A stretch of 64,000 bases of DNA from Comamonas granuli NBRC 101663 (lineage in GTDB: Bacteria > Pseudomonadota > Gammaproteobacteria > Burkholderiales > Burkholderiaceae_C): the NCBI RefSeq assembly GCF_000739995.1, contig NZ_BBJX01000001.1, positions 1 to 64,000 on the forward strand, given 5' to 3'. This document shows, piece by piece, positions 13,307 to 55,716 of the stretch. Below the pieces are notes generated by a model. The model was not told the DNA's origin. It was given only the letters and a program-made list of their open reading frames with translations, and searched no databases. Position 1 is the first letter of the stretch. Each line of letters starts with the position of its first letter. The position numbers and the translations under genes are program-made.

Positions 13307-13325
13307 CGGCCGTTCGACCTGGGCA

Positions 13326-13386
13326 TAAAAAACGGCCCCAGCCCTTTTCTATCCAGCGCAAGCAGCTACTGAATCAGTAGCAAAAC
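13326..13386 (+). repeat. REP-like palindromic repeat, copy 2
   Basis: Runs from AAAAAACGGC to AGTAGCAAAA with the AGCGCAAGCAGCTA core. It contains the near-perfect palindrome GCTACTGAATCAGTAGC and lies between the Smr gene and the convergent hemoglobin gene. Confidence 0.75.
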
Positions 13387-14815: not shown

Positions 14816-15012
14816 GGCCCCCACGGTCGCGCACTGCGTGTCGCTCCCTGCCCCCCAAGGGGGCCGCGTTTCGCCTGGGGGCGGCCCGGCGGTGAAACGG
14901 TGAGCCCCCACGGTCGCGCACTGCGTGTCGCTCCCTGCCCCCCAAGGGGGCCGCGTTTCGCCTTGGGGCGGCCCGGCGGCGAAACTGTGAGCCCCCACGG
15001 TCGCGCACGGCC
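14816..15012 (+). repeat. 87-bp tandem repeat, two copies plus a partial third
   Basis: The block beginning CCACGGTCGCGCAC recurs at 14821, 14908 and 14995, a period of exactly 87 bp (29 codons). Each full unit contains CTGCCCCCCAAGGGGGCCGC and ends in GGCCCGGCGG(T/C)GAAAC. The two full copies are almost identical. The array separates gspG from gspH. Because the period is a multiple of three, the gspH frame stays open through it. Confidence 0.85.
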
Positions 15013-15040
15013 CGTCTCACCCTCCAATCCTGCGCGGTCC

Positions 15041-19266: not shown

Positions 19267-20093
19267 CGGCCATGCCCACCGCGCCCCGCAGACCCGGCCC
19301 GGCCACCCGCTGGGCCAGCCGTGCCGGGCGCGCGCCCTGGGGCTGGGCCCTGGCCGGGGTGCTGGCCGGTGCGCTGCCCGCCGTGGCCGTGTTTGCGCCC
19401 GCGCGCTGGCTCGCCGCCGCCGTCGCCCAGGCCAGCGGCCAGCAGGTGCTGCTGGCCGAGCCCAGCGGCACGCTGTGGTCGGGTTCGGCCCGGCCCGTGC
19501 TGACGGGCGGGCCGGCCAGCCAGGACCGCGCCGCCCTGCCCTCGCGCCTGCACTGGCGCCTGCGCCCCGCCTGGGACGGGCTGCGCGCCGAGCTCCATGC
19601 CCCTTGCTGCACCCCCGCGCCGCTGCGCCTGCAGCTGCACGCCGGCCTGCGCAGCCTGCGCCTGGACGTGGCCGATGGCCAGAGCCAATGGCCTGCCGCC
19701 ATGCTTGCCGGCCTGGGCACGCCCTGGAACACCCTGCAGCCGCAGGGCCGCCTGCTGCTGCAGACCCAGGGCCTGCAGGCCCAGTGGGCCGCCGGGCGGC
19801 TGGTGCTGGCCGGCAGTGTCCAGCTCGACGCGCTGGCCCTGTCCTCGCGCCTGTCCACGCTGCGCCCCATGGGCAGCTACCGCATCACGCTGCAAGGCGG
19901 CGAGGCCGTGGCGCTGCAACTGCAGACGCTGCAGGGCGCGCTGCAGCTGAGCGGCAGCGGCCAGTGGGTGGGCCGGCGCCTGCGTTTCACGGGCGAGGCC
20001 GTGGCCGCGCCGGGGCGCGAGGGCGCCCTGTCCAATCTGCTCAACATCATCGGGCGGCGCAACGGCGCGCGCTCGCTCATCACGCTGGGTTGA
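19263..20093 (+). CDS. gspN: Type II secretion protein N
   Basis: 276 residues. One N-terminal membrane anchor (GWALAGVLAGALPAVAVFAP) is followed by a periplasmic region with LLAEPSGTLWSGSARPVL, the GTLWSG box typical of GspN. A second conserved segment is SGSGQWVGRRLRFTGEAVAA. GspN is an accessory inner-membrane component present in some T2SS clusters; its exact role is unclear. The start overlaps the gspM stop, and gspD begins 5 bp after its end. Confidence 0.88.
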   Translation: MTAMPTAPRRPGPATRWASRAGRAPWGWALAGVLAGALPAVAVFAPARWLAAAVAQASGQQVLLAEPSGTLWSGSARPVLTGGPASQDRAALPSRLHWRLRPAWDGLRAELHAPCCTPAPLRLQLHAGLRSLRLDVADGQSQWPAAMLAGLGTPWNTLQPQGRLLLQTQGLQAQWAAGRLVLAGSVQLDALALSSRLSTLRPMGSYRITLQGGEAVALQLQTLQGALQLSGSGQWVGRRLRFTGEAVAAPGREGALSNLLNIIGRRNGARSLITLG

Positions 20094-20098
20094 CCCCT

Positions 20099-22318
20099 AT
20101 GACCTGCCTGCACTTGCCGACACGCCATTTTGCTATCACAACAATAGCTACTGCCGCTTTATGGATAGGCGCTGGAGGCATTATTCATGCCCAAACCGTG
20201 CTGCAACCCGGAACGGCCAGCGTGCGCCCGGGCGAGCCGGTGACGCTGAACTTCGCGAACGCCGAGATCGAGGCCGTGGCGCGCACCATGGCCACCATCA
20301 CCGGGCGCAATGTGGTGGTGGACCCGCGCGTGCGCGGGCAGCTCAACCTGGTGACCGAACACGCCGTATCGCCCGCCAAGGCGTTCGAGCAGTTCCTGGC
20401 CGCGCTGCGCCTGCAGGGCTTCACGGTGGTGGAGTCTGCCGGGCTCTACAAGGTGGTGCCCGAGGCCGACGCCAAGCTCCAGGGCGGCAGCGTGAGCGTG
20501 GCGCAGGGCGGCGCCAGCGGCCCCGCGGGCGGGCAGATCGTGACGCAGATCTACCGCCTCAACCACGAGAGCGCGGCCAACCTGGTGCCCGTGCTGCGCC
20601 CGCTGATCAGCCCGAACAACACCATCAACGTGAGCCCGGGCAGCAATGCCCTGGTCATCACCGACTACGCCGACAACCTGCAGCGCCTGGGCCGGATCAT
20701 CGCGGCCATGGACGTCTCTACCGCAAGCGACGTGGAGATCATCCCGCTCCGGCACGCCATCGCCAGCGAGCTGGCGCCGCTGGTGGCGCGCCTCATCGAC
20801 CCCGGCGCCAGCCCCGCGGGCGCGCCCGGCGCGCCGGGCCTGGCGGACACCTCGTTCAAGACCACCCTGCTGGCCGAGCCGCGCAGCAACGCCCTGGTGC
20901 TGCGCGCGGCCAACCCTGCGCGCGTGGCCCAGGTGCGCGCCCTGGTCGAGAAGCTCGACCAGCCGCCCACGCCCGGCAGCAGCGCCGCCAGCGGCAACAT
21001 CCACGTGGTCTACCTGAAGAACGCCGACGCCACCAAGCTCGCGGCCACGCTGCGCGCGGCCCTGGCGGCCGCCGGTGCGGCAGCAGGCGCCAGCACCGGC
21101 ACGGGCGCCGCCGCGCCGGCCAGCGGCGGCGGCACCTCGTCCATGACCATGACCGGCAGCGGCCTGAGCAGCACCGCGGCCGCGGCCTCGGGCGGCGGCC
21201 TGGGCACGGGCGCGAGCAGCAGCAGCGGCAGCACCAACCAGCCGTCCACGGGCGGCCAGATCCAGGCCGACCCGACGACCAACTCGCTCATCATCACCGC
21301 GCCCGAGCCGCAGATGCGCCAGTTGCGCGCCGTGATCGACCAGCTCGACGGGCGCCGCGCCCAGGTGCTGGTCGAGAGCCTGATCGTCGAGGTCAACGCC
21401 AACAAGCTCGCCGAGTTCGGCATCCAGTGGCAGGGCGTGATGGGCAAGCAGGGCGACGGCACGGTGGGCGTGATCGGCACCAACTCGGGGGTCACGGGAG
21501 CCAACATCCTGGGGGTGACGGCGGCCCTGGCCGCGGGCGACGCAGCCTCCATCGGCAAGGCCGTGGGCTCGCTGGGCGGCGGCCTGAACCTGGCGCTGGC
21601 GCCGCGCGTGGGCGGCCAGTACTACCTGGGCGCGCTGGCCAGCTTCCTGCAGAACAGCGGCGACGCCAACGTGCTCTCCACGCCCAACCTGATGACGCTG
21701 GACAACGAGGAGGCGAAGATCGTCATCGGCAACAACGTGCCCTTCGTCACCGGCTCCTACGCCAACACCGGCGGCAACAGCGGCGCGGTCAACCCCTTCA
21801 CCACCGTCGAGCGCAAGGACGTGGGCCTGATGCTCAAGGTGCGCCCGCAGATCAACGAGAACGGCACGGTCAAGCTCTCGATCTACCAGGAGGTCTCGAA
21901 GATCGACACCTCCACGCTCAAGGACCAGAACGGCCCCACGACGAGCAAGCGCTCCATCGAATCCAACGTGCTGGTCGATGACGGCAGCATCATCGTGCTC
22001 GGCGGCCTGCTCGAAGACAGCTACGCCCAGGCCGAGGACAAGGTGCCCTTCATGGGCGACATCCCGCTGCTGGGCAATCTGTTCCGCAGCGAGAACCGCG
22101 CGCGCCGCAAGACCAACCTGATGATCTTCCTGCGCCCCGTGGTGGTGCGCGACGCCGCCGCCAGCGACGCCCTGGTGCTCGACCGCTACGACAGCATCCG
22201 CGCGCTGCAGCAGCAGGTGCAGCCCGCACCCAGCAGCCTGCTGGGCACCGTGCAGGGCGCGCCGGTGCTGCCCGCGCTGCGCCTGGACCGCAACACCCCG
22301 CCGCCGGCCGCCCAGTGA
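20099..22318 (+). CDS. gspD: Type II secretion secretin
   Basis: 739 residues from the ATG at 20099. The signal peptide hydrophobic core ([16 protein letters not shown]) precedes a mature start near HAQ. N0 ([20 protein letters not shown]) and N1-N3 domains follow, N3 containing a long Gly/Ser/Ala-rich insertion (about residues 320-385). The C-terminal secretin barrel includes [28 protein letters not shown] and [20 protein letters not shown]. It forms the outer-membrane channel. The DNA encoding the signal core is a REP-like repeat (20127-20188), which is unusual. Confidence 0.95.
20127..20188 (-). repeat. REP-like palindromic repeat, copy 4, inside gspD
   Basis: Read on the plus strand: TTTTGCTATCACAACAATAG, then CTACTGCCGCTTTATGGATA, then GGCGCTGGAGGCATTATT. 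It is the family in reverse orientation, complete with the central GCGCT block and both flanks. It is AT-richer than its surroundings and supplies codons 11-30 of gspD. Confidence 0.75.
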
Positions 22319-22320
22319 CC

Positions 22321-23709
22321 ATGCGCCACCCCCTGCCCTACGCCTTTGCCCGCGCCGCCCAGTTGCTGCTGGAGGACGACGGCCGCCAGCCCGTGCTCTG
22401 GCACGGCCCCGCCCCCGACCTGGCGCTGCTGGGCGAGGTGCTGCGCAAGCACGGCGTGCGCCACCTGCAGATGCTCGACGCCCAGACCCTGGCCCAGCGC
22501 ATCAGCGCCGCCTATGCGCAGGGCGAATCGAGCGCCGCCACGGTGGTGAGCGAGGTCGAGTCCGACGCCGACCTCTCGCGCATGATGCAGGAGCTGCCCG
22601 CCGTGGAGGACCTGCTGGAGGCCGCCGACGACGCCCCCATCATCCGCATGCTCAACGCCCTGCTCACGCAGGCCGCGCGCGACGGCGCGAGCGACATCCA
22701 CATCGAACCCTACGAGCGCCTGAGCAGCGTGCGCTTTCGCGTGGACGGCACGCTGCGCGAGGTGGTGCAGCCCAACCGCGCGCTGCACGCGGCGCTGATT
22801 TCGCGCCTGAAGATCATGGCCGAGCTCGACATCTCGGAAAAGCGCCTGCCGCAGGACGGGCGCATCAGCCTGCGCCTGGGCACGCGCGCCATCGACGTGC
22901 GCGTCTCCACCCTGCCCAGCGCGCACGGCGAGCGCGCCGTGCTGCGCCTCCTGGACAAGAGCGAGAGCAAGCTGAGCCTGGAGGCCGTGGGCATGCAGGG
23001 CGACACGCTCGCACGCTTTACCAGCCTGATCGCGCAGCCGCACGGCATCGTGCTCGTCACCGGCCCCACGGGCTCGGGCAAGACGACCACGCTGTACGCT
23101 GCCCTGAGCCGCCTGGACGCGGCGCGCAGCAACATCATGACGGTGGAAGACCCCATCGAATACGAGCTGCCCGGCGTCGGCCAGACGCAGGTCAACCCGA
23201 AGATCGACCTGACGTTTGCCAAGGCCCTGCGCGCCATCCTGCGCCAGGACCCGGACGTGATCATGATCGGCGAGATCCGCGACTTCGAGACCGCGCAGAT
23301 CGCCATCCAGGCCTCGCTCACCGGCCACCTGGTGCTGGCCACGCTGCACACCAACGACGCCGCCAGCGCCGTCACGCGCCTGACCGACATGGGCGTGGAG
23401 CCCTTCCTGCTGAGCAGCTCGCTGCTGGGCGTGCTGGCCCAGCGCCTGGTGCGCAAGGTCTGCCACGCCTGCGCCGGCAAGGGCTGCGAGGCCTGCGGCC
23501 ACACGGGCTACGCCGGGCGCACGGGCCTGTTCGAGCTGCTGGTGGTGGACGACGCCCTGCGCGCGCTGATCCACAACCGCGCGAGCGAGGCCGAGATCCG
23601 CGGCGCTGCGCTCGCCGGCGGCATGCAGCTCATGCGCGAGGACGGCGAGCGGCTGATTGCCGCGGGCGTGAGCACGCGCGAGGAAGTGCTGCGCGTGACG
23701 CGGGATTGA
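22321..23709 (+). CDS. gspE: Type II secretion ATPase
   Basis: 462 residues from the ATG at 22321; a GTG at 22315 overlapping the gspD stop is an alternative. Walker A is GPTGSGKT at 248-255. It is followed by the Asp box ([17 protein letters not shown]), Walker B ([18 protein letters not shown]) and the His box ([14 protein letters not shown]). A four-cysteine zinc site, [12 protein letters not shown], is present near the C-terminus. It powers pseudopilus assembly from the cytoplasm, docking on GspL. It is the last gene of the run: the expected gspF does not follow. Confidence 0.95.
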
Positions 23710-23710
23710 T

Positions 23711-23778
23711 TTCTTTGAGCCGTTTGGGCCTCAGGCGCTGATTGGGCAAGCGCCGGCAGCTCTGTTTTTCATAGCTTG
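23711..23778 (+). repeat. REP-like palindromic repeat, copy 5
   Basis: TTTGAGCCGTTTGGGCCTCA, then GGCGCTGATTGGGCAAGCGC, then CGGCAGCTCTGTTTTTCATA. It lies between the convergent gspE and hisF. Confidence 0.75.
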
Positions 23779-27917: not shown

Positions 27918-28679
27918 ATGCCCTTTGCGAGCCATACCATCGACGGCGCCGTCAGCATCGTGACCCTGCAGCGGCCCGAACGGCTCAACGCCATCAGCGG
28001 CAGCCTGCTGGTGGACCTGCACACCGCCCTGCAGGCCGCGCAGGCCGAGGCGGCCACGCGCGCCATCGTGCTCACCGGCGCGGGGCGGGCCTTTTGCGCG
28101 GGCGACGACCTCAAGGAGTTCGCCGAGCAGTCCGCCAGCCCGCAGGCCATCGCCGAACACTGCGAACGCATCCAGACCATCACCCGCGACATCATGTTCG
28201 GCCCCAAGCTGGTGGTGGGCGCGGTGCACGGCTATGCCGTGGGCGGCGGCCTGGAGTGGGTGCTCAACTGCGACCTCGTGGTGGCCGCCGACGACCTGGT
28301 GGGCTTCTTCCCCGAGATGGGCCTGGGCCATTTCGTGACCGGCGGCCTCACGCATCTGCTGCCCCAGGCGCTGGGGCACCAGCGGGCCATGGAGCTGATC
28401 GTGCTGGGCGAACGCCACAGCGCGCAGGACCTGCGCGCCCTGGGGCTGGTGAACCGGGTGGTGCCGCTGGCCCAGATGCTGCCAGAGGCCCTGGCCCTGG
28501 CCGCCGCCGTGGCCGCACGCTCACCCCACGCCAGCGCACTGCTCAAGCGCGCCTTCACGCGCGGCCAGGGGGAACGCGTGGAACAGGCGCTGGCGCTGGA
28601 GACCGCTGCCGCCCAGGCCTGCTTCGCGCATCCGGAAACCCACCAGCGCATCGCCCACTTCCTGCACGAGCGGCTCTGA
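27918..28679 (+). CDS. Enoyl-CoA hydratase/isomerase family protein
   Basis: 253 residues. The ATG at 27918 is preceded by AGGAG. The crotonase-fold oxyanion-hole segments are visible: ILTGAGRAFCAGDDLKEFAE and AVHGYAVGGGLEWVLNCDLV. The catalytic-loop region ADDLVGFFPEMGLGHF has Glu at one usual catalytic position, and FVTGGLTHLLPQALG follows. It probably acts on the CoA ester made by the preceding ligase, for example by hydration or isomerisation. Its stop codon lies in the 5-bp direct repeat flanking a MITE-like element. Confidence 0.9.
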   Translation: MPFASHTIDGAVSIVTLQRPERLNAISGSLLVDLHTALQAAQAEAATRAIVLTGAGRAFCAGDDLKEFAEQSASPQAIAEHCERIQTITRDIMFGPKLVVGAVHGYAVGGGLEWVLNCDLVVAADDLVGFFPEMGLGHFVTGGLTHLLPQALGHQRAMELIVLGERHSAQDLRALGLVNRVVPLAQMLPEALALAAAVAARSPHASALLKRAFTRGQGERVEQALALETAAAQACFAHPETHQRIAHFLHERL

Positions 28680-28680
28680 G

Positions 28681-28860
28681 AACGTGTCTACGATCTTTTC
28701 ATGGAGCCCGTTGCCCCGTAAAAGTGGCAGGTGCAAGGCAGCAAAAAGCCGCACTCGTCGTTGCGCTCCTTGCCCAGGCCGCCAGCATGGCCTGCGGCGC
28801 GCGCCTAGATTGCGGCTTTTTGCTGCCTTGCGGGCTCCATGAAAAGATCGTAGACACGTT
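28681..28860. mobile_element. MITE-like element, 180 bp, with 30-bp terminal inverted repeats
   Basis: The ends AACGTGTCTACGATC.../...GATCGTAGACACGTT are perfect inverted repeats for 30 bp (28681-28710 and 28831-28860). A second perfect 20-bp inverted pair lies inside (28734-28753 and 28811-28830). The element is flanked by the direct repeat CTGAG (28676-28680 and 28861-28865), consistent with a 5-bp target duplication. It has no plausible transposase gene, so it must be moved in trans. Confidence 0.8.
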
Positions 28861-28888
28861 CTGAGGCGGCGCCCGGCGCGCCGCGCCC

Positions 28889-29715: not shown

Positions 29716-30384
29716 TCAGGGGTTCCAGTGCAGAAAGTTGCGGTAGAGCTGCAGGCCCTGCTCCGCGCTTTTCTCCGGGTGGAACTGCGTGGCGAAAATA
29801 TTATCGCGTGCGACCGCCGATGCAAAGACGCCGCCGTAGTCGGTCTCGCCCGCGCAGTGGCGCGGGTCGCTGGGGCGTGCATGGTAGCTGTGCACGAAGT
29901 AGAAGTAGCTCTGGTCCGGCACGCCCGCCCACACCGGGTGCACGGCGCCTGCGTGCGGCACCTGGCGCACGGTGTTCCAGCCCATTTGCGGCACCTTGTA
30001 GCGGCTGCCGTCCTCCTGCGTGCGGCCGGCCAGCTCGAAGCGGACCACCTCGCCCGGGATCAGGTCCAGGCCGGGCGTGTCGCCCTCGGCGCTGTGCGTG
30101 AGCAGCATCTGCATGCCCACGCAGACGCCGAACAGCGGCTTGCTGGCGGCGGCCTCCAGCACGGATTCGAGCAGGCCGGATGCGCGCAGCTCGCCCATGC
30201 AGTCGGGCATGGCGCCCTGGCCCGGCAGCACGATGCGCTGGGCGGCGCGCACCTGCTCGGGCGCGCTGGTGACCACGACCTGCCAGGACGTGCCCTGCGC
30301 CGCCGCCTGCACCGCCTGCGAGACCGAGCGCAGATTGCCCATGCCGTAGTCCACGACCGCGACGGTATTTACTACTGAATTCAT
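29716..30384 (-). CDS. hisH: Imidazole glycerol phosphate synthase, glutaminase subunit
   Basis: 222 residues. It is a class I glutamine amidotransferase: the nucleophile Cys lies in [11 protein letters not shown], and the His-x-Glu pair in [14 protein letters not shown]. The N-terminus [14 protein letters not shown] is conserved. It feeds ammonia to HisF. The ATG (30382-30384) sits within REP-like copy 6, so the first few residues (MNSVVN) are encoded by repeat sequence rather than by ancestral coding sequence. Confidence 0.96.
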
Positions 30385-30428
30385 AGCTGCTCGCGCAGGT
30401 TGGATAAGCGCTGGAGGCCTATTTTGCC
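30367..30428 (-). repeat. REP-like palindromic repeat, copy 6, overlapping hisH start
   Basis: Plus strand: TTTACTACTGAATTCATAGC, then TGCTCGCGCAGGTTGGATAA, then GCGCTGGAGGCCTATTTTG. It fills the hisB-hisH gap and includes the hisH start codon and first codons. Confidence 0.75.
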
Positions 30429-30435
30429 CAGATTT

Positions 30436-33383: not shown

Positions 33384-33440
33384 GAACGCTCTGCTTTTGA
33401 TAGCTGTTTGCGCTTATCCAGAAAGCGTCAGAGTGCAATT
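33384..33440 (-). repeat. REP-like palindromic repeat, copy 7
   Basis: Plus strand: GCTCTGCTTTTGATAGCTGT, then TTGCGCTTATCCAGAAAGCG, then TCAGAGTGCAATTTTG. It keeps the palindromic core and both flanks. Confidence 0.7.
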
Positions 33441-33616
33441 TTGTTTGGGAATTTGCACCAGCAACCCGTGCATGTTCGCCCCCTGCTTTCCGCGAAGACC
33501 TGGCCCTGCTGCGCGAAACGGTGGCGCATAGCGGCCATTCTTGCCAAAGCACGTTTTTTCCCAGGAAAGCCGGCATGTCTGAAAAGGGCGCTGTGTGATG
33601 CATGCGGCGCCACACA

Positions 33617-34729: not shown

Positions 34730-36049
34730 TCAGGGCTTGAGCCGCATCTCCGCCGCCCGCGCATGCCCCTGCAGGCCCTCGCCGTGCGCCAGTACGCTGG
34801 CGATGCGGCCCAGCACCTGGGCGCCCTGCTCGCTCACCTCGATGAGGCTGCTGCGCTTCTGGAAGTCGTACACGCCCAGCGGACTGGAAAAGCGCGCCGT
34901 GCCGCTGGTGGGCAGCACGTGGTTGGGGCCGGCGCAGTAGTCGCCCAGGGATTCGCTGGTATAGGCCCCGAGGAAGATGGCGCCCGCGTGCTTGAGCAGC
35001 GGCTCCCAGCGGTGCGGCTCGCGGCTGCTGACCTCCAGGTGCTCGGGGGCGATGCGGTTGGAAATCTGGCAGGCCTCCTCCATGCTGCGCGTGTGGATCA
35101 GCGCGCCGCGGCCGGTCAGGCTCTTGGCGATGATCTCGGCGCGCGGCATCTCGGGCAGCAGGCGGTCGATGGCGGCCTGCACGGCGTCGATGTAGGCGGC
35201 GTCGGGGCACAGCAGGATGCTCTGGGCCAGTTCGTCGTGCTCGGCCTGGCTGAACAAGTCCATGGCCACCCAGTCGGCGGGCGTGCTGCCGTCGGCCAGC
35301 ACCAGGATTTCGCTGGGCCCGGCGATCATGTCGATGCCCACGGTGCCGAACACGTGCTTCTTGGCGCTGGCCACGTAGGCGTTGCCGGGGCCGGTGATCT
35401 TGTCCACCTTGGGCACCGTCTGCGTGCCGTAGGCCAGCGCGCCCACGGCCTGCGCGCCGCCGATGGTGAAGGCGCGCGTGACGCCCGCCACATAGGCCGC
35501 CGCCAGCACCAGCGGGTTCTTCTCGCCACGCGGCGTGGGCACGACCATGATGATCTCGCCCACCCCGGCCACGTGCGCGGGGATGGCGTTCATCAGCACG
35601 CTGCTCGGGTAGGCGGCCTTGCCGCCGGGCACGTAGATGCCCACGCGGTCCAGCGGCGTGACCTTCTGGCCGAGCAGCGAGCCATCCTCGTCGCGGTAGC
35701 TCCAGCTCTCGCCGCAGGCCTTCTTCTGGGCCTCGTGGTAGCTGCGCACGCGCGCTGCGGCGGCGCTCAGGGCTTGGCGCTGGGCCTCGGGAATGGCGTC
35801 GTAGGCGGCCTGCAGTTCGGCCTGCGTCAGCTCCAGCGCGGCCATGCCGTCGGCGCTCAGCCCATCGAAGCGCGCGGTGTATTCCAGCACGGCGGCGTCG
35901 CCGCGCTGCTGCACGTCGGCCAGGATGGCGGCGACGCGCTGCTCGATGGCGGCGTCCTGCTCCGCCGACCAGTGCAGACGCACCGCAAATTCAGCCTCGA
36001 AACTGGCTGCAGCGGTTGACAGACGGGCGGGAGCAGCTACGAATTTCAT
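34730..36049 (-). CDS. hisD: Histidinol dehydrogenase
   Basis: 439 residues from the ATG at 36047-36049. It is a zinc- and NAD-dependent enzyme that oxidises histidinol to histidine in two steps. Motifs include [20 protein letters not shown], the [16 protein letters not shown] and [16 protein letters not shown] stretches, [14 protein letters not shown] and APEHLEVSS. The reading frame stays open upstream through hisG, but conserved sequence begins after this ATG. The first ~15 codons ([16 protein letters not shown]) lie in REP-like copy 8. The gene is last in its block; hisC does not follow directly. Confidence 0.96.
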
Positions 36050-36055
36050 AGTATT
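36005..36055 (+). repeat. REP-like palindromic repeat, copy 8, overlapping hisD start
   Basis: GGCTGCAGCGGTTGACAGAC, then GGGCGGGAGCAGCTACGAAT, then TTCATAG aligns with copy 11 (GGCTGCAGCGCTTGTCCAGC...AGCAGCTAT). It spans the hisD start codon and the first ~15 codons. Confidence 0.65.
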
Positions 36056-37985: not shown

Positions 37986-38003
37986 GGTGGTATTCAGCAA
38001 CAA

Positions 38004-38056
38004 ATCGGGCTGTAGCGCTTATCCATCAAGCGCCAGAAGCTCTGTTTTTCATAGTA
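38004..38056 (+). repeat. REP-like palindromic repeat, copy 9
   Basis: ATCGGGCTGTAGCGCTTATC, then CATCAAGCGCCAGAAGCTCT, then GTTTTTCATAGTA. It fills the gap between the bolA-like gene and murA. Confidence 0.75.
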
Positions 38057-44734: not shown

Positions 44735-45696
44735 TGAGCGGCGAGCCCACCGTGCAGGCCACACGTTACCTGGCCGAGCGCCTGAACGCCGATTTCGGCT
44801 TCTACCTGAGCGAGCGCCGCCTGCTGGACCAGCGCCAGTCGGCCTGGCAGCACATCGAGGTCTTCGAGAACCCGCAGTTCGGGCGCGTGATGCGCATCGA
44901 CGGCTGCTTCATGACCAGCGAGCGCGACGAGTTTTTCTACCACGAGCCCATGGTGCACCTGCCGGCCATCGGCCACGCGGGCGTGCGCCGCGCGCTGGTG
45001 GTGGGCGGGGGCGACGGCGGTGCGGCCGAGGAGCTGCTCAAGCTGCCCGGCATGGAGCGCGTGGTGCTGGCCGAACTCGACGCCGAGGTGGTCGCCATGG
45101 CGCGCGCGTGGCTGCCCAGCATCCACCGCGGCGCCTTCGACGACCCGCGCCTGGAGCTGCGCCTGGGCGATGCGCGCGCCTTCATCGGCCAGACCGAGGA
45201 GCGCTTCGACCAGATCATCCTGGACCTGACCGACCCCTTCGGCCCGGCCGTGGAGCTCTACACCGTGGAGTTCTACGCCGCCTGCCGCCGCGCGCTCAAC
45301 CCTGGCGGCGTGCTCTCGCTGCACCTGGGCTCGCCCGTGCACCTGCCCGAGAGCCTGGGGCGCATCGCCGCCTCGGTGCGCGCGGTGTTCCCCATCTTCC
45401 GCCCCTACCTGCAGTACGTGCCGCTGTACGGCACGCTGTGGTGCATGGGCATGGCATCGGACAGCACGGACCCTGCCCGGCTCAGCGCCGACGAGGTGGA
45501 CGCGCGCATTGCCGCGCGCGGCCTGCGCGACCTGCAGCTCTACAACGGCGCCATGCACCAGGCGCTGCTGGCGCAGCCGAACTTCGTGCACGCGCTGCTG
45601 GATGCGCCAGCGCGGCCGCTGCACAGCGGCGATGCGCTGGACGAGGTGCGCGACCCCGCGGAGTTGCCGGAAGTGGTGGTGTCTGCCGTTGGGTGA
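44734..45696 (+). CDS. speE: Spermidine synthase (polyamine aminopropyltransferase)
   Basis: 320 residues. The aminopropyltransferase motifs VVGGGDGGAAEELLKLPGME, VVLAELDAEVVAMARAWLP and IILDLTDPFGPAVELYTVEF include the decarboxylated-AdoMet-binding GGGDG loop and the catalytic Asp. It transfers an aminopropyl group to putrescine or a related diamine. It is somewhat longer than E. coli SpeE, with a C-terminal extension after LWCMGMASD. It is translationally coupled to speD. Confidence 0.93.
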   Translation: MSGEPTVQATRYLAERLNADFGFYLSERRLLDQRQSAWQHIEVFENPQFGRVMRIDGCFMTSERDEFFYHEPMVHLPAIGHAGVRRALVVGGGDGGAAEELLKLPGMERVVLAELDAEVVAMARAWLPSIHRGAFDDPRLELRLGDARAFIGQTEERFDQIILDLTDPFGPAVELYTVEFYAACRRALNPGGVLSLHLGSPVHLPESLGRIAASVRAVFPIFRPYLQYVPLYGTLWCMGMASDSTDPARLSADEVDARIAARGLRDLQLYNGAMHQALLAQPNFVHALLDAPARPLHSGDALDEVRDPAELPEVVVSAVG

Positions 45697-45707
45697 TTTT
45701 TAGTCCA

Positions 45708-45765
45708 ATCACCCTCTAGCGCTGATGGATCAAGCGCTGGCAGCTATTCTTTTTGATGCTATGGG
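45708..45765 (+). repeat. REP-like palindromic repeat, copy 10
   Basis: CAATCACCCTCTAGCGCTGA, then TGGATCAAGCGCTGGCAGCT, then ATTCTTTTTGATGCTAT. It lies between the convergent speE and the ABC ATPase gene. Confidence 0.7.
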
Positions 45766-48371: not shown

Positions 48372-48438
48372 CGCATCAGCATGAAAAACGGCTGCAGCGC
48401 TTGTCCAGCAAGCGCAAGCAGCTATACAAAAAATAGCA
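48372..48438 (+). repeat. REP-like palindromic repeat, copy 11 (reference copy)
   Basis: GAAAAACGGCTGCAGCGCTT, then GTCCAGCAAGCGCAAGCAGC, then TATACAAAAAATAGCAACC. The core GCGCTT-GTCCAGC-AAGCGC is a clean hairpin with a 7-base loop. It lies between gltD and the binding-protein gene. Confidence 0.8.
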
Positions 48439-54784: not shown

Positions 54785-54911
54785 AAATTCGCAGGGAAGC
54801 GAAGATTAATGCATTACGTCATGCACCGCAAGCATAGCTACATGTTTTTAATTGGGGTCAGATACAAATTTCAATCTCTATTTTTCACAAATTCATTAAT
54901 TAGGGACATAT
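54785..54911. other. AT-rich spacer with a GGGGTCAG motif
   Basis: An abruptly AT-rich stretch between gltB and the RAYT gene. It contains AATTGGGGTCAGATACAAAT, resembling GGGGTCAG-type motifs that often accompany stand-alone Y1 transposase genes. It also contains the gltB promoter region. No gene is seen. Confidence 0.4.
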
Positions 54912-54962
54912 TAAATTGATAGCTGCTGACGCTTGTCGGACTGCGCCTGGAGCGCTATTTCA
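54912..54962 (-). repeat. REP-like palindromic repeat, copy 12, at the RAYT gene end
   Basis: Plus strand: AAATTGATAGCTGCTGACGC, then TTGTCGGACTGCGCCTGGAG, then CGCTATTTC. It ends within the stop codon of the RAYT gene. Confidence 0.7.
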
Positions 54963-55667
54963 TTCGGCTTTTTCAACCTGCGCGGTGACAGATGGCCTGC
55001 CAGGGCGCCCCCGGCTCATGCGGCGGCCGGTACGCGCCTGCAGCGCGGCGATGAAGTCCGGCTCGCCCAGCGCCCAGCCGGTGTGGGTGTGGTGGCCCAG
55101 TTGCACGCTCTCCTGGGTACCTATGCCGGCCTGAACCAGCGCGGCATAGGCCGACTCGCGTGCAAACGGGGTATTGCCCAGGGCCCAGTACAGCGCATGC
55201 GGGGTCACCAGCGCATCGGCCTGCTGCCCCACGCTGCACAGATGGCTGGACCAGCGGTACTGCGCCGGCAGCGCCACCATGCCCGCACGCACGGGGTTGA
55301 GGTCGATGTAGACCATGCAGGCCAGCAGATAGCGCTCGGACTGCACGATGGCCGAGCGGTAGCGCCCCTCCCACAGCGTGCCCGTGCGCCCATGGCGCCG
55401 GTTGAAGTAGCGCACATAGGCGCGCCCCACGGCCTGCATCATCTGCGGCAGGCCGGTTTCTGTCTCGGGCGTGACCAGCAGGTGGAAGTGGTTGTCCATC
55501 AGCACGTAGGCATGGACGGCAACCCGCTGTGCCCGCGCATGCTCGGCCAGCAGCTCCCGCATGCGCTCGAAATCCTGCGCATCGATAAAGATACGCTGCC
55601 GGTTGGTGCCGCGCTGGATCACATGGTGCGGAAAACCGGGGATCGTGAGGCGCGGCAGGCGGGCCAT
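54960..55667 (-). CDS. REP-associated tyrosine transposase (RAYT, Y1 family)
   Basis: 235 residues from the ATG at 55665-55667, preceded by AAGGAG with a 7-base gap. The N-terminal GFPHHVIQRGTNRQRIFIDA is characteristic of the family. The HUH metal motif is DNHFHLLV (His60, His62). The catalytic Tyr is in AVGRAYVRYFNRR, followed by GTLWEGRYRSAIV and YIDLNPVRAGMV. RAYTs are single-strand nucleases related to IS200/IS605 transposases that process REP hairpins. A REP-like copy lies at its 3' end, and the family is dispersed through this window. The gene is intact. Confidence 0.92.
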   Translation of the reverse strand: MARLPRLTIPGFPHHVIQRGTNRQRIFIDAQDFERMRELLAEHARAQRVAVHAYVLMDNHFHLLVTPETETGLPQMMQAVGRAYVRYFNRRHGRTGTLWEGRYRSAIVQSERYLLACMVYIDLNPVRAGMVALPAQYRWSSHLCSVGQQADALVTPHALYWALGNTPFARESAYAALVQAGIGTQESVQLGHHTHTGWALGEPDFIAALQARTGRRMSRGRPGRPSVTAQVEKAE

Positions 55668-55716
55668 GGTCAAGCTCCTTGGGGTGCAGGCGGCCGACGG
55701 GCCGGGCCCTCATTCT

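Follow-up and report, generated by a model that had tools for sequence, protein, structure and literature searches.

The leader of the type II secretion system (T2SS) secretin GspD of Comamonas granuli NBRC 101663 is very probably a translated, repeat-derived signal peptide, encoded by one copy of a REP-like repeat that is dispersed through the genome. The window analysed here is the stretch of DNA from position 1 to 64,000 of contig NZ_BBJX01000001.1, and gspD lies at 20099-22318 on its plus strand, starting with the ATG at 20099. The product of 739 amino acids matches the GspD family TIGR02517 over residues 50-692 with 611.9 bits, against a cut-off of 351.35. The stop codon of the preceding gene (20091-20093) comes before this start; from its position that gene is presumably gspN, and its stretch gave no match in NCBIfam.

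GspD requires a Sec signal. Using the translation and the Kyte-Doolittle profile, we propose a signal peptide of 31 residues (20099-20191, plus strand) with predicted cleavage before QT. The N-terminus consists, in order, of 11 residues, 20 repeat-encoded residues, QT and the N0 region. Residues 12-31, which make up the hydrophobic core and cleavage region of the presumed signal peptide, are encoded by the repeat; an initial annotation of this DNA had recognized this arrangement, although it assigned it to codons 11-30. The maximum 12-residue hydropathy mean in the first 34 residues is 1.79, no second hydrophobic segment was seen ahead of the N0 region, and the composition of the leader fits a putative Sec signal peptide. 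Established GspD biology leads us to infer that the leader works as a Sec export signal. The repeat, of about 65 nt, would have been captured at the 5' end of gspD in its hydrophobic, signal-peptide-like frame, and would now supply, on translation, the h- and c-region of the secretin's export signal.

The repeat in gspD was detected by an ungapped match, by nhmmer and by a position weight matrix (PWM). The ungapped match covers 20130-20194 on the plus strand and ends with codon 32, so that the match proposed initially stands but its span, given as 20127-20188, does not. Seventeen copies, 10 from the window and 7 from elsewhere in the same genome, went into an nhmmer profile, from which the gspD copy was excluded in every round. 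This profile finds the leader at 20131-20194 over model positions 3-66, with 38.9 bits and an E-value of 3.8e-11; the top-scoring copy reaches 65.8 bits with the same profile. The PWM score of the leader, 63.2, was reached by none of 1000 synonymous recodings under either of two null models. Recodings with the gene's own codon usage scored 3.0 ± 4.8 (n = 1000; observed z 12.5), and those with equal use of synonyms 17.4 ± 8.4 (n = 1000; observed z 5.4). Both results confirm that this stretch belongs to the dispersed family and that a profile from the other copies scores it. Signal peptides are alike in composition and this frame of the repeat is hydrophobic anyway, and on these grounds hydrophobic, Ala-rich leaders might resemble the repeat by accident or convergence. 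We give such an origin practically no credence in view of the failure of all recodings under two nulls, the rare codons of the leader and the about 30 relatives that carry the match in one phase; at the DNA level, chance similarity is ruled out by the synonymous recodings.

The window holds 10 copies of the repeat at E ≤ 1.2e-9, that of gspD included, and three partial ones at E ≤ 1.6e-4, in agreement with the 13 copies counted at the outset. In the whole genome at least 150 matches were found, all at E ≤ 6e-9, and the family is therefore high-copy and dispersed, as in REPs of the GTAG/RAYT type; the genome stretches examined contain 144 distinct copies. The consensus of about 65 nt has G or C at 26 of 65 bases (40% GC). 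Among 16 aligned copies AGC is invariant and ATAGCT nearly so, and the tag at the hairpin foot is most commonly ATAG, with GTAG and AGAG as minorities. On the minus strand of the window, copies lie at 13320-13382 (45.0 bits), 37992-38056 (56.2 bits), 45696-45759 (44.8 bits) and 48376-48438 (51.0 bits), and at 23714-23776 (44.2 bits), just past the open reading frame (ORF) 22315-23709 downstream of gspD, presumably gspE. A further minus-strand copy (35989-36055, 43.7 bits) lies in the reading frame of a histidinol dehydrogenase ORF (PF00815), at its N-terminal end; the true start of this ORF is not established. Plus-strand copies are found at 33385-33445 (34.2 bits), at 30370-30434 (59.5 bits), where an ORF on the opposite strand, with a GATase domain (Pfam), has its 5' end, and at 54909-54966 (41.0 bits), overlapping the 3' end of a RAYT-like ORF. 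This ORF (54960-55673, minus strand) encodes a Y1 transposase and is the sole match in the genome to PF01797 (51.2 bits, cut-off 23); with NF047646, the model for REP-associated tyrosine transposases, it scores 79.4 bits, just under the cut-off of 80.

Two other repeats were observed in the window. Tandem GC-rich repeats of 87 nt, two copies and part of a third, occupy 14817-15023 and are possibly BRE-like. A 35-nt inverted repeat (28676-28710 and 28831-28865) is 97% complementary, with its arms 120 nt apart.

In gspD, the REP-like repeat is read in the one of its six frames that is often hydrophobic (18 residues in the consensus). Of 125 non-coding copies from this genome, 20% are free of stops in the ATA frame and reach a 12-residue hydropathy mean above 1.6 there, against 0-6% for the other five frames. 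One codon of this frame is TGN or another G codon in 101 of the 125 non-coding copies, 30 of which have TGA, whereas most coding leaders have Leu there, as TTA (12), TTG (5), CTA (4) or CTT (2; n = 32). Leu in leaders where repeats have mostly TGC or TGA is what selection for a signal peptide would require. The six stem pairs of the hairpin are kept at 0.94 in the non-coding copies, with no excess over the conservation of the arms alone, and at 0.84 in 18 coding copies. These observations bear on the direction of the capture, since a repeat that spells out a nearly complete signal peptide in one of its frames, and that is shared by two leaders of one genome (gspD and the M16 peptidase described below), could itself have come from a signal-peptide-coding segment. 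We consider this reverse direction very improbable: TGA interrupts the ATA frame in those 30 non-coding copies, the stem is better kept in non-coding than in coding copies, and the internal coding copies use several frames.

The gspD copy is one of many in frame in this genome. A placement test based on codon usage, which covered 143 of the 144 distinct copies, located 8 inside genes and in frame. Another 20 have coding sequence on both sides on a single strand and 7 have it on both sides but on different strands, while 59 have it on one side and 49 on neither. By our own reading of frames and family matches, about 18 of the 144 copies, gspD included, lie in a coding frame, a list in which some N-terminal copies may precede the true start. 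The cases include DapF, MutS, AcnA, RpoN, linkers of Lpd and of an E2 subunit and a thioredoxin-TPR protein, as well as YhhN, TrmJ, GluQRS, EarP, an MmeI-type protein, the M16 peptidase, two lipoprotein-like leaders, CinA and HisD. In-frame copies of this genome lie in MutS (L178), DapF (L156), AcnA (L235), TrmJ (L102), EarP (L110) and RpoN (L218), and in relatives REP copies occur in the UvrA (L143) and RecB (L148) ORFs.

A second presumed signal peptide, that of an M16 peptidase of the same genome (L193:797-1699, corresponding to C27:17186-18088), is REP-derived in the same frame as gspD. Its leader, ML-AIKNIAVRALLVSAAALFVQN-PAWA, has a PWM score of 70.9, above the 63.2 of gspD. A match to this peptidase was found in 33 of 60 family genomes; among the 30 loci listed, the leader PWM score is above zero in 19 and an in-frame ATAGC is present in 16. 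Positive leaders among these 30 occur in all 16 repeat-rich genomes (at least 24 copies) and in 3 of the 14 poorer ones. Near the start of an ORF in a Rhodoferax-labelled genome (L136:783-1709), we also noted a REP-like segment, NALNLIAACALLTGASASFSLE; this ORF gave no match in NCBIfam.

In GluQRS (L201:365-1321), the in-frame REP corresponds to about 15-20 extra residues at one site. Among the relatives L280-L308, compared by eye at the protein level, the insert is present in 16 of 29, partial in one and a gap in 12, which to judge from this alignment shows that a REP probably entered the gene as an insertion. GluQRS is thus comparable to the Rickettsia palindromic elements (RPE), as an in-frame repeat in a conserved protein with homologues that do not have it. 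The insert occurs in 13 of 13 repeat-rich and 4 of 17 poor genomes, in a set that leans to genes like that of this genome because it holds the best-scoring 30 of the 59 genomes with a match.

For the comparison of gspD leaders, one genome per species was scanned and the best 80 of 582 relatives were kept, a sample that therefore leans to kin of the window. About 31 leaders among the loci of these 80 have the same repeat DNA at the same position and in the same frame. Thirty of the 80 leaders score higher than every one of 300 recodings with host usage; for 29 of them, no more than 2 of 300 recodings with equal usage come as high, while 38 do so for L022. When stretches of 48 nt were scanned without gaps, each of the 30 rows with a score of at least 24 was in one phase; L082 is among them, yet is not REP-like by PWM. 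REP-like leaders occur in genomes labelled Acidovorax, Paracidovorax, Simplicispira, Giesbergeria, Comamonas, Xylophilus, Rhodoferax and Curvibacter, and in one Hydrogenophaga (L040). L054, misplaced in the PWM test by the window-protein anchor, has an in-frame ATAGC and was counted as REP, and L027, with no leader on its contig, was left out of the leader counts. The initial proposal, that a repeat was taken over as an export signal, is supported; what does not hold is an isolated capture, because REP-like leaders are shared across genera, and the direction from repeat to leader is itself the reading we favour. With the same DNA, position and frame in many Comamonadaceae, the capture would be old.

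Leaders with DNA unlike the repeat were found in the other Hydrogenophaga-labelled genomes, in Lampropedia, in the other Ramlibacter and in Delftia. Some (L023, L037, L044 and L053) are alike at the protein level by eye, yet are written in host codons. Homologues without the repeat carry different leaders, in more host-like codons, the outcome of a comparison that the initial annotation had proposed. In three relatives (L063:1445-1507, L087:1498-1551 and L060:1439-1500), a REP-like stretch in reverse orientation was seen at the C-terminal end of the gene upstream of gspD, presumably gspL; it is in the coding frame, with no length change by eye relative to the window gene.

Among relatives, conservation of the leader is highest in the ATAGCT block (20144-20149, plus strand in the window), which consists of the rare Ile codon ATA followed by GCT. 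In a set of 32 leaders, that of the window and those of 31 relatives, 31 have ATA as the codon of this block and one has GTA, followed by GCT in 27 leaders and by GCA in 5; elsewhere in the same genes ATA accounts for 7 of 1143 Ile codons, a contrast that is inflated because the set was chosen for REP-likeness. An in-frame ATAGC is present in 31 of the 32 REP-like leaders against 2 of 48 others (L054, and L014 at another place), and GC3 is 0.44 in the 32 leaders against 0.88 in the remainder of the genes; it is 0.74 against 0.86 for the 48 other leaders, some windows of which extend before the start codon. In 26 selected leaders, a rare synonym (less than 15% usage) forms a majority of at least 60% in 5 of 21 columns, against 0 of 657 in the remainder, and ATA stands in 26 of 26, against no ATA in any of the 29 well-filled Ile columns of the remainder, again with the inflation that selection as REP-like brings. 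Once the ATA and GCT columns are left out, leaders show a synonymous agreement of 0.654 and the remainder of the gene one of 0.653, so that the strong conservation is concentrated in this block; for all leader columns, pooled leader usage predicts an agreement of 0.46, below the 0.654 observed.

Such a conserved block might indicate that selection acts on the leader DNA as a REP, one possibility being that a factor linked to the family uses it as a binding site or as an mRNA element; its nucleotides would then be kept for regulation as well as for the peptide. In its favour, AGC is invariant and ATAGCT nearly so in repeats, ATAGC is nearly so in leaders, 17 leaders retain most of the stem (0.88 of six pairs), and the repeat DNA is lost from leaders where the family is gone. 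However, the GCTAT arm that faces ATAGC varies without compensation, and the hairpin has no covariation in leaders or in repeats (arm-shuffle 0.29 and 0.35). Nor would the RAYT-like protein account for a coupling between leader and family: a relative at E ≤ 1e-20 was found in 32 of 34 repeat-rich genomes and in 16 of 16 repeat-poor genomes tested, so that its presence does not explain repeat abundance, and RAYT presence is not supported as the cause of the coupling. We regard selection of the leader as a REP as unlikely.

The DNA of the leader is associated with the abundance of the repeat. Repeats were counted in all 80 genomes with a covariance model from 16 non-gspD copies, the highest counts (at least 119 to at least 146) being lower bounds, and genomes with at least 24 copies were called repeat-rich. 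For 79 relatives and the window, a REP leader is found in 32 rich genomes and 1 poor one (L025), and a non-REP leader in 3 rich (L043, L044 and L065) and 44 poor ones (Fisher 9e-18). A strict 12-base pattern was discarded as a measure of richness in favour of the covariance model, because it misled for 6 of 48 genomes examined; these six leader-positive genomes have 0-10 strict matches but 24-118 copies by the covariance model. They were the apparent cases of the same codons in relatives without the family, and no such relative was found, apart from two qualified exceptions: L025 (5 copies), with a weak, decayed leader that keeps an in-frame ATAGC, and L014 (4 copies), with an in-frame ATAGC at another place in an otherwise unlike leader.

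We propose that as long as the repeat family persists the leader would keep repeat DNA and rare codons, and that once the family is gone it would be recoded or become unlike the repeat. Our preferred cause is that the leader and the dispersed copies exchange sequence, through gene conversion or through re-capture, and that selection retains those changes that leave a working signal peptide. Scored on a quick tree of the mature part of GspD, 7 independent pairs on well-supported branches typically give 6 concordant and 0 opposed (median p 0.03, range 0.03-0.125). Repeat variants of the clades were also compared, with log-odds built from 58 and 29 repeats: the mean is +0.5 for 22 Acidovorax-side leaders, 9 of which are below zero, and -6.0 for 8 Rhodoferax-side leaders, 2 of which are above zero. 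Base 26 after the ATAGCT start is G in 85% of Rhodoferax-side repeats and C in 88% of the others, and it is G in 5 of the 8 Rhodoferax-side leaders. In these alignments leaders tend to resemble the repeat variant found in their own clade, which speaks for exchange or re-capture rather than for one frozen capture; the exceptions in both clades mean that exchange is not proved and that a single capture with slow decay is possible. Taken alone, exchange between leader and dispersed copies is a tentative explanation, to which we give less than even weight.

The association may instead reflect shared ancestry, after a single ancient capture and vertical descent with independent decay of leader and family. 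Consistent with such a history, position and frame are the same in relatives, the GspD tree has only 10 changes of leader state, and repeat-poor genomes among the loci listed retain the GluQRS insert and a positive M16 leader in the 4 and 3 cases given above. It accounts less well for the ATA shared by all selected leaders and absent from the well-filled Ile columns of the remainder, for about six of seven independent pairs changing with repeat richness and none against, and for the tracking of clade variants, with the exceptions stated. We hold this history to be plausible, though doubtful. Under the preferred explanation by exchange, repeats in repeat-rich Comamonadaceae would keep rewriting their own protein-coding copies, and the export signals of secretion proteins would evolve in concert with a repeat as well as with the genes they belong to, giving way to ordinary codon-optimised signal peptides where the repeat is lost; this wider picture is conceivable and we advance it with reserve.

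Several known repeat systems offer points of comparison. The palindromic elements of Rickettsia, attributed to Ogata et al. in 2000, are reportedly the classic case of in-frame repeats in conserved proteins. The likeness to the present family is one of description, in-frame repeats in conserved proteins; the host is unrelated, and here the leader DNA tracks repeat abundance. REPs of the GTAG and CGTC types have been described in frame inside ORFs, many of them DNA repair genes including uvrA and recB, with the warning that for many cases N-terminal REPs may be extragenic (Di Nocera et al. 2013, PMC3733652). The present repeats resemble those portrayed in that source as high-copy short palindromes, some in frame, here in MutS and in the UvrA and RecB ORFs of relatives. 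They differ in that a copy at the N-terminus, presumed to act as an export signal, is conserved between genera; the main text of PMC3733652 contains neither the term 'signal peptide' nor the names Acidovorax, Comamonas, Polaromonas or Rhodoferax. An RU-2 repeat in YPO1552 of Yersinia, where homologues of other genera have unrelated signals, is related in passages of Delihas 2007 (PMC2759123; also PMC2229807) as a case of a single, putatively exported protein that Y. pestis and Y. pseudotuberculosis have in common (PMC2759123). By comparison with that account, a secretin and a peptidase are concerned here, across genera and with conservation at the nucleotide level. The BRE of Betaproteobacteria, of about 90 bp and 69% GC in Bordetella, is likewise a dispersed repeat reported in Comamonadaceae with some copies within coding sequences, according to sections of PMC3110155. 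An identity with BRE was rejected, by description only, because about 65 nt and 40% GC do not agree with the about 90 bp and GC-rich sequence given there. The portions of PMC2755013 concerned contain nothing on such repeats. In the open-licence literature searched, there was no paper on this repeat, the only precedents being those of Di Nocera, Ogata, Delihas and BRE; no cross-genus conservation of a repeat-derived leader in a T2SS secretin; and neither a recurrence in a second protein nor a coupling of leader DNA to the repeat population.

These data suggest that repeat DNA can supply working protein parts. For signal peptides they offer a concrete, testable origin, a dispersed repeat with one frame that is already signal-peptide-like, and in gspD the repeat-derived coding sequence has persisted in several genera, within a secretion component that is itself conserved. 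The finding also bears on the annotation of gene starts in Comamonadaceae. Finally, protein-coding leader DNA is here tied to the repeat population of its genome, which bears on concerted evolution in bacteria.
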